A stretch of DNA of 33,240 nucleotides from Nitrososphaeria archaeon (GCA_010028495.1 RHCX01000008.1:1-33240); one strand, 5' to 3'; shown: positions 12,204 through 18,598, numbered from the stretch's first letter. Notes: a model not told the origin generated them from the sequence alone. A program made the numbers and translations.

Positions 12204-12833
12204 TTATGCTTGTGTGCACACTGTCAAAATAGTACTTTCTTTGATGTCTTCTTTTGCCAGTCTCAATGAAACTGTGATCTTGTTTTTGATAATGTCGATT
12301 TTGATATTATCAAATACCGAGCGGTATTTTGAGACCTTTTTTCCATCACTTGTTGTGATGTAACCAGCAGTTACTAGTAGTCCATCGTCGATTAACGAGT
12401 TTACTTTTCTATAACCTGAAGTCTGCGCAATATCACAGATTGTGATTATTTGAGATACAATCAAAGAATCTCCGTTTAGTGTAGATAGAATCTTTTTCTT
12501 GTCGTCATCGCCAAACGAACCTAAAATTACTCCAGTCAGTACTGGGTTGTCAATTACAATCCAGTCTTCGCCGTTAACTGATTCTATTGTACAAACGCTT
12601 TTGAGGAACTTTTTTTCCAGACCATCCACTGCAACTCCAAAGAATTCGCGTAATACGCCATCAACTTTTTGGAATTCCTCTAGGGATTCTGTCAGTGAAA
12701 TGCCAAACTTTTCCTGCAGCCTGGTCTCTACTTTTTGCACGGTTCTGCTGCCCAAGTTATCACGAATGATAGCATCTAGAGATCTTGCAAAAAGCCTGTC
12801 TATACCAGTCACACCATAATACCGTGCATCCAA
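12204..12833 (-). CDS. Conserved hypothetical protein with C-terminal winged-helix-like region; possible transcriptional regulator
   Basis: SLIVSQIITICDIAQTSGYRKVNSLIDDGLLVTAGYITTSDGKKVSKYRSVF resembles an ArsR-type wHTH; divergent from the receiver gene. Confidence 0.75.
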   Translation of the reverse strand: MDARYYGVTGIDRLFARSLDAIIRDNLGSRTVQKVETRLQEKFGISLTESLEEFQKVDGVLREFFGVAVDGLEKKFLKSVCTIESVNGEDWIVIDNPVLTGVILGSFGDDDKKKILSTLNGDSLIVSQIITICDIAQTSGYRKVNSLIDDGLLVTAGYITTSDGKKVSKYRSVFDNIKIDIIKNKITVSLRLAKEDIKESTILTVCTQA

Positions 12834-12842
12834 GTATATTAC

Positions 12843-12862
12843 TATTTCCAGTCATGGACATA
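12843..12862. promoter_or_regulatory. Dyad motif copy A: TATTTCCA-GTCA-TGGACATA
   Basis: Inverted half-sites separated by 4 nt, upstream of 12204-12833. Confidence 0.55.
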
Positions 12863-12882
12863 ACAGTTTAATATTATTTTCA

Positions 12883-12902
12883 CATTTCCAAATATGGAAA
12901 TG
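12883..12902. promoter_or_regulatory. Dyad motif copy B: CATTTCCA-AATA-TGGAAATG (perfect 8-bp arms)
   Basis: Perfect inverted repeat between divergent regulator and receiver genes. Confidence 0.7.
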
Positions 12903-12957
12903 AGTCCTCCATTAGCGGATAGTAATAAGATGGCCAATTCTTACAAGGCGTGCCTTA

Positions 12958-13368
12958 ATGTGGGTGCCTGAAAGTGTTATGCTCTCAAGTGTCGAGACTT
13001 TGGAATCAAAGATGGTCACATCAATAGTCATAGACGACGATACAGACATTGTCGAAGTATTTTGCGAGTATCTAGAGATAAAAAACATCCAAGTTGTCGG
13101 TAGGGGACATAACGGTCAAGAGGCAGTTGAGCTGTATCAAAAACACACTCCAGATGTTGTTTTTTTGGATGTTATGATGCCCGGTTTTGATGGGATCTAC
13201 GCCTTGGAAAACATCAGAAAGATAAATCCTGATGCCAAAGTCATTGTAATCACTGCGGATTTGAGAGAGGAAACCGCCTTGAGACTAAACGAGCTAAAAC
13301 CAAATAGAATTTTTGTCAAGCCATGTGATTTGGAAAAGATTAGCCAGGCAGTATCAAGTTTTAGCTGA
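12958..13368 (+). CDS. CheY-like response regulator receiver-domain protein
   Basis: SIVIDDDTDIVEVF, DVVFLDVMMPGFDG, VIVITAD, FVKP; true start may be ATG at 13012 (MVTSIVIDDD). Confidence 0.93.
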   Translation: MWVPESVMLSSVETLESKMVTSIVIDDDTDIVEVFCEYLEIKNIQVVGRGHNGQEAVELYQKHTPDVVFLDVMMPGFDGIYALENIRKINPDAKVIVITADLREETALRLNELKPNRIFVKPCDLEKISQAVSSFS

Positions 13369-13522
13369 TTATTTGTTGAATTTTCTCAAGCGCCTTTTCC
13401 ATTCTTTTTACTTCCGACTGGACGGTCTTGTCATCGGTCTGATGCTTGATTATCTCTAGTGATGTATTGATTACAAAGAGTGGGTCACGTATCTCAGTCA
13501 GTGGGTTATTCACCATTTCCAC
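13361..13522 (-). CDS. Unlisted small ORF: 51-53 aa stand-alone HisKA/DHp-like domain lacking the phosphoacceptor His
   Basis: GTG(13522)GAA-ATG(13516)...; MVNNPLTEIRDPLFVINTSLEIIKHQTDDKTVQSEVKRMEKALEKIQQIIS*; TATA-like TTTTATAC about 26 nt upstream of GTG; aligns by eye to HDLQNPLTIIRNTMEILK of the kinase at 17750. Confidence 0.6.
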   Translation of the reverse strand: MEMVNNPLTEIRDPLFVINTSLEIIKHQTDDKTVQSEVKRMEKALEKIQQIIS

Positions 13523-13556
13523 TTAGTATGATATTCGTACTCAGTATAAAAGATAA

Positions 13557-13576
13557 TCCTTCCAAACTTGGAAATA
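13557..13576. promoter_or_regulatory. Dyad motif copy C: TCCTTCCA-AACT-TGGAAATA
   Basis: Inner arms TTCCA/TGGAA with the same N4 spacing; just upstream of the TATA-like box of the 13361-13522 ORF. Confidence 0.5.
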
Positions 13577-13582
13577 AACCCA

Positions 13583-14539
13583 TTATGCAGCTAATTTGTA
13601 TCTCAAGCGGTACAAGCCAAAGGCTACTACAATGATAGATGACACAGTAAACGGATTGATTGCCTCTAAAAGATATGCTCCGGAATATACGATTCCAAAA
13701 GCAGTGCTTGATGAGTAGACAAGTATTGTGCGTACTGCTCCAATCATCCTGACCGCAAGAACAAAGAACAAAACACTCCCGCCTATCCCAGACACGCCCA
13801 CTACAGAGAGTAATGACATATCAGATAACGACATGTTGAATTTGGTGCCAGTAAACAACATTGCAACAAGGCACATTCCTGCTCCAGACAATGACATTAC
13901 TTGAACTACTTTAGTGGTGTTTACGTTTCCTGCGTGTTTTGCAATGAATGTACATAGACAATAAATGAATCCAGAAATCAACACCATTACATCGCCAAAC
14001 ACGAATTTGGTGAATTCTAGCTTGTGCTCATATGCATCGGATGCTATTGGTAGAAAAATTGCACCTGCTGCAATCAATACAAATGGAAAGATCTCTCTTT
14101 TTGCAAGATATTCCTTGTATATGATCATTCCAATCAGCACGGTGAACACTATCTCGCTGTTGGCCAGAACTGACGCATTGGATGCACTTGTTTCTTTTAG
14201 TCCGTACGAAAACGCCAAAGTAGAACATGCCGAAGCAGCGCCATAAATCATCAGAACGAGATAGGACGATTTTTTGACGGGATTCTTTGGCTTTTGCAGT
14301 TTTGTTATTGGTGTAAAAACTGCTCCAGTTACCATATACATTATGAAAACAACAAACAGAGGATCCGCTGGATTCACACCTGAAACTTTTGGATCCACAA
14401 TTGGTTTTGATATAACATCAGGCAAAGAAGAAAGAGCAGCTGCAATGATTGCCGTGATAAATCCGATTGTTCCGGCAGATTTTATCTTGTAGAATTTTGA
14501 AAAGGTGCCGCTTGTCCGCGCGCTAGTTATAATTGACAA
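13583..14539 (-). CDS. EamA/DMT superfamily permease
   Basis: 318 aa, about 10 hydrophobic helices, duplicated EamA-like halves (SYGLKETSASNASVLANSEIVFTVLIGMIIYKE). Confidence 0.88.
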   Translation of the reverse strand: MSIITSARTSGTFSKFYKIKSAGTIGFITAIIAAALSSLPDVISKPIVDPKVSGVNPADPLFVVFIMYMVTGAVFTPITKLQKPKNPVKKSSYLVLMIYGAASACSTLAFSYGLKETSASNASVLANSEIVFTVLIGMIIYKEYLAKREIFPFVLIAAGAIFLPIASDAYEHKLEFTKFVFGDVMVLISGFIYCLCTFIAKHAGNVNTTKVVQVMSLSGAGMCLVAMLFTGTKFNMSLSDMSLLSVVGVSGIGGSVLFFVLAVRMIGAVRTILVYSSSTAFGIVYSGAYLLEAINPFTVSSIIVVAFGLYRLRYKLAA

Positions 14540-14551
14540 TCATCATCCCAC

Positions 14552-14571
14552 CATTACCACAGTTGGAAATG
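14552..14571. promoter_or_regulatory. Dyad motif copy D: CATTACCA-CAGT-TGGAAATG
   Basis: 7 of 8 arm pairs, same N4 spacing, between divergent genes 13583-14539 and 14626-15453. Confidence 0.55.
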
Positions 14572-14572
14572 A

Positions 14573-14595
14573 GATCCCTAGATTTAAGGGGGATC
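14573..14595. promoter_or_regulatory. Inverted repeat GATCCC-N11-GGGATC with TATA-like ATTTAAG in its spacer
   Basis: Read directly; immediately follows motif copy D, upstream of the ORF at 14626. Confidence 0.4.
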
Positions 14596-14625
14596 ATTTT
14601 TTGACAGACGGCATCTTGTGGAGGC

Positions 14626-15453
14626 ATGAAAAACACGCAGAAATTTTTATGCGGCAAAAAACACCAAAATTCGTTGACTGAGAAACAATCCACAGATAGC
14701 CTTGGTGCAAAGATAGACTACAAGATAATCCTAATCATAATCGGCTTGACTGTCGTATATCAGATCATAAATTATTCAATCAAGGATTTCACGGATCAGG
14801 AATTCAACATCATCGATGTAATAGAGTTGTCACTCCAGGCGGCAGCAACTATAACTGCATTTTACATATCAAAGTTGTATTGGCCTGGCAAGATCTTTGG
14901 TAAGGCGTACTTTGCACTAGGATTGGCTTTTGCGATGTGGTTTATCGCAGAATTAATTTGGCAAGTCTATGAAAATATTTTGTTTATATCTCCATACCCC
15001 TCGATTGCAGATATTTTTTATTTTGCATTTTATCCATTTGCAATATACCACATGATAACAAACGTAAGAGGATTTGAGGTAAAAATTACAAAAAAAACTA
15101 TTGCATGGATGGCCGCAATCCCAGTTAGCATTCTTGTTGCTTATTCCTATATTGCAATTTCAGAGCATGGTGGAACAAGCTTTGATTATTATTATTCTCT
15201 AATATTTGTCGGCATAGCTTCAATATCCGTATCCTTTACTATACTTGGAGCACTAACATTTAGAAAAAGCGCATTTACGATTGTTTGGTCACTACTAACA
15301 ATAGGCCTATTTTTACACGTATTAGGAGATGTCTGGTATTACTATCTAGAGATATTTAGTGCATATACAGATACGCACATAGTAAATGCACTGTGGCAAG
15401 CAGGGTGGATGGTAATTATCTATTCTTTGTATAAACATCAAAAAGTTCTATGA
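14626..15453 (+). CDS. Polytopic membrane protein with PYPSIADIFYFAFYP motif (paralogue of 16540-17337)
   Basis: 275 aa; WFIAELIWQVYENILFISPYPSIADIFY shared with the minus-strand gene at 16540-17337. Confidence 0.85.
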   Translation: MKNTQKFLCGKKHQNSLTEKQSTDSLGAKIDYKIILIIIGLTVVYQIINYSIKDFTDQEFNIIDVIELSLQAAATITAFYISKLYWPGKIFGKAYFALGLAFAMWFIAELIWQVYENILFISPYPSIADIFYFAFYPFAIYHMITNVRGFEVKITKKTIAWMAAIPVSILVAYSYIAISEHGGTSFDYYYSLIFVGIASISVSFTILGALTFRKSAFTIVWSLLTIGLFLHVLGDVWYYYLEIFSAYTDTHIVNALWQAGWMVIIYSLYKHQKVL

Positions 15454-16433
15454 TATTGGTTTGTTACTTTGAGAACAGAGCGTTCCGATAAATCCACTAT
15501 GTTCATGTAGGTTTCAAGGTGTGAGCTCACATCAGGAATAAAAATCTCATCCTGTGAGTCAATGGAATCGCTCAGAATCACACCTTCAGTGTCCAGTGTT
15601 TTTCTAGTCTTTTTGTCAATTGAAAAGATCCTCTGGTGTGTAAGACCATCATAAAAGCTGAGATTTTTACATTCTCGTTGCCCTAGTTTTTTGTCAACTT
15701 GTGTAGGATTCAACATAGGTATTTTATTATCCGATGCCATAGCAAATGCCCATTCCTGTCCAAACAAAGGAGTGTATGCCACGTATGGGACTACAAATTT
15801 GAAGACAGAGCCAAGTGTTTTGACTATTGATGCAAAGCGTGTAGAATACCTATAATCGGCGGAATTTGCAGCAGTTGCAAATATCCCATCTGAAGTCATT
15901 TTACCTTTGGCAAGATCAAAGAATTCTTTTCGGTATAGAGGAGCTGCGATATCATCATGATGAGGCATCGTAGTATCCAAAAACACACAGTCATATCCAC
16001 CATCGGCCTGAGTGAGGAATCTTCTTGCATCGTCATGGTATAAACTAGTTCGCGGATCTGAAAACGATTCTGCGGCATAATTGTAAAGGTTTTTGCAAAT
16101 ATCCACCACCTCTTTGTCGATATCAACAATGTCAACTTGATCAACGGTCTTGTGGCGCAACACTTCGCGCAGTGTTAATCCCGTGCCGCCACCACCAATG
16201 AAGATCTTTTTTGGTTTAGAATGGCCAATCATGGATGGATGTACCAAACTTTCATTGAAGACGTGCTCTTCGGCTTCGGACGACTGCGGATCTCCATCCA
16301 AAAACAAAACATTGCCAAAATCCCTAGTCTTCATTATTTCCAATAGTTGGTATTTGGTCTTTTTTGAGAAAATGCACTCATCAATCTTGTGAAATATCTT
16401 TTCTCCCTCACCAACATCGACGTATTTCCACAT
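15438..16433 (-). CDS. Spermidine-synthase-like (polyamine aminopropyltransferase family) protein with variant active-site motifs
   Basis: KIFIGGGGTGLTLREVLRHKTVDQVDIVDIDKEVVDICK, DPRTSLYHDDARRFL, YDCVFLDTTMPHHDDIAAPLYRKEFF; TATA-like TTTAATAG about 26 nt before ATG. Confidence 0.87.
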   Translation of the reverse strand: MWKYVDVGEGEKIFHKIDECIFSKKTKYQLLEIMKTRDFGNVLFLDGDPQSSEAEEHVFNESLVHPSMIGHSKPKKIFIGGGGTGLTLREVLRHKTVDQVDIVDIDKEVVDICKNLYNYAAESFSDPRTSLYHDDARRFLTQADGGYDCVFLDTTMPHHDDIAAPLYRKEFFDLAKGKMTSDGIFATAANSADYRYSTRFASIVKTLGSVFKFVVPYVAYTPLFGQEWAFAMASDNKIPMLNPTQVDKKLGQRECKNLSFYDGLTHQRIFSIDKKTRKTLDTEGVILSDSIDSQDEIFIPDVSSHLETYMNIVDLSERSVLKVTNQYHRTF

Positions 16434-16442
16434 TTGAAAATG
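16423..16442. promoter_or_regulatory. Dyad motif copy E: TATTTCCA-CATT-TGAAAATG, overlapping the start codon of 15438-16433
   Basis: Same arms and N4 spacing with one or two mismatches. Confidence 0.5.
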
Positions 16443-16539
16443 AGGGGTATGTCTGACTATTAAAGATCGCGCTAGTTTGCGTACTCATCATGAAGCATAT
16501 TAGAAAACAAGTAATGTGATAAACTGCTACTTTACGCAC

Positions 16540-17337
16540 TTAGGGGGTGTTCATTTGATGTGAGTTTTTCTCTTTTTTGAACAATACCAGATTGCTATAC
16601 ACACCGAATGACAAAAACACATAGTTCAGATGGAACAGCATCTCAACTGGGCTGCCAGTATAGTACGAGTCGTCAAGCTGACCTATTAGAAATATCGTGT
16701 CTGCTGCAAAAAGGCAGATTATACCAATGCAGACCAAAGTCCACATCAGGTTTACTTGCCCCTTGAAGAACAAAACCACACCAATTAGTGCCGGAATTAT
16801 GACCAACGAATCAAATGCCGGATAGACTGCCCCAAGAACCGTTGCCAGTGTTCCCTGGTCACTTGGGTTGCCAAGAGCAAAGTAAAGACTCGGCATCAGC
16901 ACACCTATTGATATAGTACATGAAATTGCTATTGCTTTTTTTGTTATGGCGGCCCGAACAGGCTGCAAATATGCAATAAAAAACATAAGCAAAAACGGAT
17001 AGCCCATCACATAAAATATATCGGCAATAGACGGATACGGGTCTTCATGCAGCACGAGTTCCTCATTAATCCAAAGCATTTCTGCAATAAACCAAGATAT
17101 CGCATAGCCGGCAAATGAAACCCAGGCAAGGCCGTGCGTTCCGCCAAGACCGAACCTAAATGCCAACAAAATCGATAAAACCAAAAACAAGCCGGCAAGC
17201 GGAATGTATGATAAATTCCCAGTTAGTATAGCCAAGTCTTTTGAAATGGTGTTTGTGATTAGATTGATGGCTATTATTCCAATTACGGTTGCGATGAGAT
17301 ATTTTTTTGTCAGTACAGAGTCAAGTGTGGTTTGCAT
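16540..17337 (-). CDS. Polytopic membrane protein with PYPSIADIFYVMGYP motif (paralogue of 14626-15453)
   Basis: 265 aa; YAISWFIAEMLWINEELVLHEDPYPSIADIFYVMGYP. Confidence 0.85.
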   Translation of the reverse strand: MQTTLDSVLTKKYLIATVIGIIAINLITNTISKDLAILTGNLSYIPLAGLFLVLSILLAFRFGLGGTHGLAWVSFAGYAISWFIAEMLWINEELVLHEDPYPSIADIFYVMGYPFLLMFFIAYLQPVRAAITKKAIAISCTISIGVLMPSLYFALGNPSDQGTLATVLGAVYPAFDSLVIIPALIGVVLFFKGQVNLMWTLVCIGIICLFAADTIFLIGQLDDSYYTGSPVEMLFHLNYVFLSFGVYSNLVLFKKEKNSHQMNTP

Positions 17338-17749: not shown

Positions 17750-18598
17750 ATGCATTCCAAGGACATCGATAGGATACTAAAGATTGCTCAGGAGGACGCC
17801 GAGCGAATTCTAAGACATGCAAAAGAAGATGCCGAAAGACTGCTTAAACATGCACAAGAGGATGCAGAGCGTGTCCTAAGACATGCAAAAGAAGATGCCG
17901 AAAGACTAGAGCCAAAAGAAGTCCCCGCTCAGACACCGAATGTGGTCAAGCGAGACAAAATGTACACCATAGGCGAAATGTCATCAAGGCTGGCCCATGA
18001 TCTGCAAAACCCATTAACAATAATTAGAAACACGATGGAAATTCTCAAGCTCAAAAATCAGGATGTCGATAAAAAAACCAAGGAAAACTATGACAGAATA
18101 GAGCGAGCTGCCTCAAAAATGTCGCAGCAAATCCGAGACGTTCTCAATTTTGTCAGGACCAGCGAGCCAATAATGGAAAAGACATCTATTTTGGAAATTC
18201 TAAAAAACACAATTTCCGGCCTGGACATTCCATCTGATGCCAAAATAATTCTTCCAGAGCAAGACACCGAAGTATATGGGGATGTAAAACAGCTCGAAGT
18301 TGTATTTTCCAATTTGATACTCAATGCAATTCAAGCTAGTGAAAATGGTGGCAAAGTCATGATACAAACAACAGAAACAGACGGCAACACCATAATCGAT
18401 GTCGTCGATAACGGCAAAGGAATAGAAAAGCAAAACCTGCCAAAAATATTTGAGCCGTTATTTACCACAAAGCAGCAAGGAACCGGACTAGGTCTGCCAA
18501 GCTGCAAATCCATACTAGAAAGCCATGGCGGTACAATTGAATGTGCAAGCATTCCAAGCAAAGGAACGGTCTTTACAATACGCCTCCCACGATACTAA
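17750..18598 (+). CDS. Soluble sensor histidine kinase with N-terminal 11-residue repeats
   Basis: HisKA RLAHDLQNPLTIIRNTMEIL; HATPase N box NLILNAIQAS, DVVDNGKGI, TKQQGTGLGLPSCKSI. Confidence 0.95.
   Translation: MHSKDIDRILKIAQEDAERILRHAKEDAERLLKHAQEDAERVLRHAKEDAERLEPKEVPAQTPNVVKRDKMYTIGEMSSRLAHDLQNPLTIIRNTMEILKLKNQDVDKKTKENYDRIERAASKMSQQIRDVLNFVRTSEPIMEKTSILEILKNTISGLDIPSDAKIILPEQDTEVYGDVKQLEVVFSNLILNAIQASENGGKVMIQTTETDGNTIIDVVDNGKGIEKQNLPKIFEPLFTTKQQGTGLGLPSCKSILESHGGTIECASIPSKGTVFTIRLPRY
17774..17905 (+). repeat. Four tandem 33-bp/11-aa units (ILKIAQEDAER-ILRHAKEDAER-LLKHAQEDAER-VLRHAKEDAER)
   Basis: 32-nt identical segment ctaagacatgcaaaagaagatgccgaaagact at 17810-17841 and 17876-17907. 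Confidence 0.95.

Follow-up and report, generated by a model that had tools for sequence, protein, structure and literature searches.

The TrmBL1/Tgr regulons with their TGM operator, which belong to the Thermococcales, are reviewed in PMC4158304, together with the general rule that archaeal regulators bound downstream of TATA block the polymerase, while those bound upstream of BRE/TATA can activate. The locus described here resembles these regulons in its inverted-repeat putative operator at many archaeal promoters, in its winged-helix regulator, and in having candidate repressor sites over the start downstream of TATA with others upstream of BRE/TATA. However, the operator sequence is different, the regulator has no confident Pfam match, its winged helix is placed towards the C-terminal half rather than at the N-terminus, and the targets are an exporter and unknown proteins as opposed to sugar metabolism. 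The ArsR/SmtB repressors are alike in the predicted winged-helix fold, the dyad over the start and autoregulation beside an exporter gene (here predicted), although our regulator has a long additional N-terminal helical domain and the structural similarity is weak (E about 0.003). Finally, Ca. Nitrosocosmicus agrestis excretes polyamines when ammonia is high, and DME-family transporters are upregulated along with this (PMC8573960). As here, a DMT-superfamily exporter is involved, and there it rises together with polyamine synthesis genes; unlike the present case, that study describes no regulator or operator, found no spermidine synthase gene, and places the DMEs of other genera of ammonia-oxidizing archaea (AOA) in a separate group (PMC8573960).

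The window, by which we mean the whole 33,240-nucleotide stretch analysed, is contig C171 of a 1.63 Mb draft genome. Its host is a Nitrosotenuis-like ammonia-oxidizing archaeon; among named organisms, Candidatus Nitrosotenuis strains are the closest to it. Archaea that oxidize ammonia are abundant nitrifiers. In the open-access literature we found neither a published description of the motif or regulator presented below nor an AOA transcription regulator for which operator and targets have been defined. Read from the sequence, the locus points to an undescribed gene switch that would act on itself, on an exporter and, in some species, on a polyamine-type enzyme. What the analysis offers is a regulator and a candidate operator to go with it, a list of conserved targets, and a correlation between residue and site, all open to in vitro study without genetics.

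The dyad TTTCCA-N4-TGGAAA occurs in five copies within 3.6 kb of the window, in the promoters of neighbouring genes, and the five sites with a 4-nt spacer reported in the first-pass annotation (A to E below) were all found where it had placed them. Relative to CATTTCCA-N4-TGGAAATG, B has no mismatch, D one, E two and A three; these four are the window's sole matches at ≤3 mismatches. Dinucleotide shuffles give a mean of 0.53 such matches, and none of 100 attains four. Site C has 4 mismatches, all in outer bases, and its core TTCCA-N4-TGGAA is exact. Genome-wide counts were obtained by mismatch-tolerant pattern searches. At ≤1 mismatch to ATTTCCA-N4-TGGAAAT there are five matches in the genome, four of them in the block and the fifth within a threonine-synthase-like reading frame; at ≤2 mismatches there are 32, of which five fall in the 3.6-kb block where 0.06 are expected (P ~6e-9, with the 27 remaining sites taken as background). 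The reversed pattern, used as a genome-wide control, has 4 matches. Outside the block, the motif is near chance level for this genome, and the clustering, together with the conserved dyad at several orthologous promoters, supports the regulon that had been proposed.

When a matrix was derived from 106 sites in relatives, leaving aside both the window and its closest relative, the five sites took ranks 1 to 5 in the window (28.9, 22.4, 22.0, 15.4 and 12.8; the next match scores 8.4). This is a consistency test only, because the training sites were found via a consensus derived from the window; the conservation tests are stronger. Exact-dyad discovery in 58 upstream regions gave a weak signal (best counts 6-7 versus 4 in shuffles), and the result for upstream regions became decisive once mismatches to the consensus were allowed: the dyad lies upstream of 41 of 79 homologs of the wHTH regulator, from many genera, as against 0.28 in dinucleotide shuffles (≤2 mismatches). 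The sites themselves, how they are conserved and placed, and the link with the regulator and exporter were all computed directly from sequence.

Three of the sites lie 23-29 bp downstream of a TATA element, over the predicted transcription start. Dyad B (12883-12902) is perfect and lies 23 bp downstream of the plus-strand TATA-like GTTTAATA (12866-12873), as the putative operator of the divergent transcript. Dyad D (14552-14571) lies between the divergent genes for an EamA transporter and a membrane protein, 23.5 bp downstream of a conserved minus-strand TATA (14582-14588), and dyad E (16423-16442) covers the start codon of an aminopropyltransferase gene, 29 bp downstream of its TATA (16458-16465, minus strand). 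The other two abut a TATA on its upstream side, A (12843-12862) that predicted for the wHTH regulator gene and C (13557-13576) that of a DHp-like peptide (13544-13551, minus strand). Both C and D had been placed just upstream of TATA-like boxes; this holds for C, but D is downstream, since upstream of it lies the TATA that is conserved and suits the promoter of the transporter. Among the target promoters, the dyad centre falls 17-26 bp downstream of the TATA centre, and the start codon is often in or just past the right arm. By analogy with the systems reviewed in PMC4158304, the placement of B, D and E would be that of a repressor, and A and C would represent a second type, upstream of BRE/TATA, where bound regulators can activate.

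Loss of the sites from orthologous promoters, which the first-pass annotation had named as grounds for abandoning its proposal, is not what the relatives display. Within the genus, site D is kept in 7 of 7 orthologous transporter promoters and site C is aligned in 9 orthologous promoters of the DHp peptide; site E is present in all 7 aminopropyltransferase promoters with a core identical in the 7 genomes, although its partial overlap with coding sequence adds a constraint of its own. In the alignments of the C, D and E promoters, the invariant columns are mostly on the dyad and the TATA element. Upstream of the regulator homologs, the offset of the dyad is near-constant in most cases. A and B start 40 bp apart in five genomes and 41-42 bp apart in one further genus, and the second site 40 bp from B is retained in G034, G017, G062 and G050.

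Across 81 neighbourhoods, with genes called by a simple longest-ORF rule, there are 163 dyads (135 outside genes) versus none for the reversed control. The genes downstream of them are most commonly the regulator itself and the EamA transporter, followed by a HEAT-repeat protein, a TrmB regulator, an RHH-like protein and the receiver. The conserved core consists of the regulator and the EamA transporter (13583-14539, minus strand; PF00892), often with the HEAT-repeat protein and the receiver, and the transporter is the most consistent target besides the regulator. The regulon had been described as local, which fits this genome; it does not fit the relatives, where distant transporter genes belong to it as well and the dyad is kept at transporter genes far from the regulator (for example G050:C6, G088:C47, G082:C21, G100:C121 and G062:C17). 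Transporter paralogs of 31-39% identity carry the dyad in 6 or 7 of 8 cases (the one in G017 adjoins the regulator), and those of 24-30% identity in 0 of 8. It should also be noted that in G005, of another genus (L086-L089), dyads that are perfect or nearly so precede genes whose products appear to be secreted; these possibly reflect a wider regulon or the sites of a paralog.

The first-pass annotation had singled out the product of 12204-12833 (minus strand; 209 aa) as the obvious candidate binder, and it is indeed the best candidate, its own promoter carrying the dyad across genera. The start, given there as TTG 12833, is probably GTG 12812, because the homologs begin at that point. In an AlphaFold model of the protein (pLDDT 80.5), the N-terminal part is long and helical and leads into an ArsR/SmtB-like winged helix, and a fold search against the PDB returned largely ArsR/SmtB regulators as top matches (best E about 0.003, none below 0.001); as modelled, the regulator thus has an ArsR-like winged-helix fold. 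None of the Pfam/NCBIfam ArsR families (HTH_5, HTH_20) matches the window regulator, its homologs have only sub-threshold matches to HTH_20, TrmB and MarR, and for the TrmB model PF01978 the regulator is below cut-off (4 of 11 members, best member E 0.011). A sequence search of the PDB gave chance matches only. The NitrOD5 Pfam model, tried for the N-terminal domain, had 0 matches in the genomes, the controls and the regulator homologs, and the genome search with it is uninformative because even the controls went unmatched.

Genomes without the regulator family have background dyad counts, with a mean of 1.85 sites at ≤1 mismatch per genome versus 6.2 in genomes with it, base composition being uncontrolled in this comparison. 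Furthermore, a Gln precedes T-S-G-Y-R in the presumed recognition helix of 64 homologs, 54 of which have nearby dyads and 10 of which do not, while only one of the 13 homologs with a non-Gln residue has a dyad; since three independent changes underlie this correlation, it is only suggestive. An apparent match between a Gln-to-Arg switch and a change of the arms from TTCCA to TCCCA was set aside as a mere hint, as Gln-type regulators also tolerate TCCCA. In G094, a deletion has left a truncated regulator fused to a neighbour gene, with loss of the receiver, transporter and enzyme and of every dyad nearby. At the junction (L085 5518-6236; the same place as L046), the g94 gene runs from its codon 59 into codon 22 of the regulator.

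The most serious alternative, which we nonetheless regard as unlikely, is that the dyad is a true operator bound by a regulator encoded elsewhere (TrmB, Lrs14 or another wHTH paralog), with the local wHTH gene merely a target. TrmB genes do carry the dyad in other genera, and paralogs of the regulator's own family are common, with five in this genome. However, the Nitrosotenuis TrmB homologs lack the dyad even though the regulon is intact in that genus, so TrmB is disfavoured as a general binder; the background counts in genomes without the family, the co-variation of the recognition-helix residue with dyad presence, and the joint loss of nearby dyads and targets with the truncated regulator of G094 all argue against the wider alternative as well.

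It is very improbable that the dyad acts in RNA, folding the 5′ end of leaderless messages into a hairpin that masks the start codon. Many sites do overlap start codons, and a 7-8 bp stem with a 4-nt loop could form, but among 146 distinct sites 184 cells are broken as against 12 two-sided changes to a new Watson-Crick pair, and A and C lie upstream of TATA and are therefore untranscribed from those promoters. Changes in the sites, being mostly one-sided and pair-breaking, fit DNA recognition, and the hairpin was rejected on these grounds. Slighter still is the prospect that the sites are origin recognition boxes (ORB) bound by Orc1/Cdc6, which the similar arms TTCCA and GGAAA would suggest, archaeal ORB motifs having a TCCA...GAAAC core in common (PMC4164010). 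ORB arms are 1-2 nt apart while those of the dyad are 4 nt apart, the window has ORB-like matches only as often as chance predicts, with none at the five sites, and in G034, G017 and G076 the Orc1/Cdc6 genes are remote from the block, while in this genome they are on a different contig; wrong spacing and distant orc1/cdc6 thus led us to reject it. Chance recurrence of common words, in favour of which one can cite the roughly 27 scattered matches at ≤2 mismatches in the remaining genome, is the least credible reading of all and was rejected on the clustering, the matrix ranking, and the conservation of the dyad in orthologous promoters and at its near-constant position upstream of regulator homologs.

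We therefore consider it likely that the wHTH regulator has the dyad as its operator and would repress the exporter genes and itself until released by a ligand. What we infer here is the regulator's binding, whether it represses or activates, its ligand, and what the exporter transports. The ArsR-fold regulator would bind TTTCCA-N4-TGGAAA as a dimer. At B, D and E, the operator would lie downstream of TATA, over the transcription start or the start codon, so that RNA polymerase should be blocked by the bound regulator; the targets repressed would be the EamA exporter, the aminopropyltransferase and the divergent transcript on the receiver side. At A and C, abutting TATA on the upstream side, the regulator should modulate its own promoter and that of the DHp peptide, by BRE blocking or by activation. 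The N-terminal helical domain would sense a small molecule or partner, whereupon repression would be relieved and the exporter made. EamA/DMT proteins include amino acid and amine exporters (PMC8573960), and an exporter as the main target bears on the compounds that AOA release to their neighbours.

The block had been suggested to be a polyamine, transport and signalling regulon. The polyamine part depends on one gene, that of the spermidine-synthase-type aminopropyltransferase (15438-16433, minus strand; PF01564), whose matches to the NCBIfam polyamine aminopropyltransferase models are below the curated cut-offs. Site E accompanies this gene in all 7 genomes that have it, and the gene is absent from 10 of the 17 genomes of the genus; because of this limited distribution, we treat the polyamine label as a hypothesis. 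Hypothetically, an aminopropyltransferase under site E would suit a role in amine export in Nitrosotenuis. A broader and quite tentative picture is a family-wide AOA efflux regulon, in which the wHTH regulator senses a polyamine or other nitrogen-overflow metabolite and derepresses the EamA exporter, with local aminopropyl transfer and a phospho-dead DHp peptide that tunes the receiver in Nitrosotenuis.

The receiver (13012-13368, plus strand; PF00072) is a stand-alone domain protein and a conserved neighbour, without a DNA-binding domain. The 53-aa DHp-like peptide (13361-13522, minus strand) has no confident family and no phospho-accepting histidine. Its DHp-only ORF is conserved in 9 Nitrosotenuis loci, with the histidine absent in all, and at its stop it overlaps with the end of the receiver gene (13361-13368); the peptide may act on a kinase-receiver pair as a decoy or antagonist. 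In several relatives, a gene for a HEAT-repeat protein (~167 aa) starts at site B, between the regulator and the receiver; it is missing here (12903-13011) and in G034, with site B retained. The orphan polytopic membrane protein at 14626-15453 (plus strand) has 8 predicted helices and no Pfam match, and a fold search with its model gave no significant PDB match. A second orphan membrane protein, at 16540-17337, is related to it. Members of this family are often found close to the regulator, and also next to homologs in Nitrososphaerales, in which no dyad was seen. Finally, a histidine kinase (17750-18598, plus strand) has an N-terminal EDAER(I/L/V)L(R/K)HA(K/Q) repeat, whose copy number seems variable among relatives.
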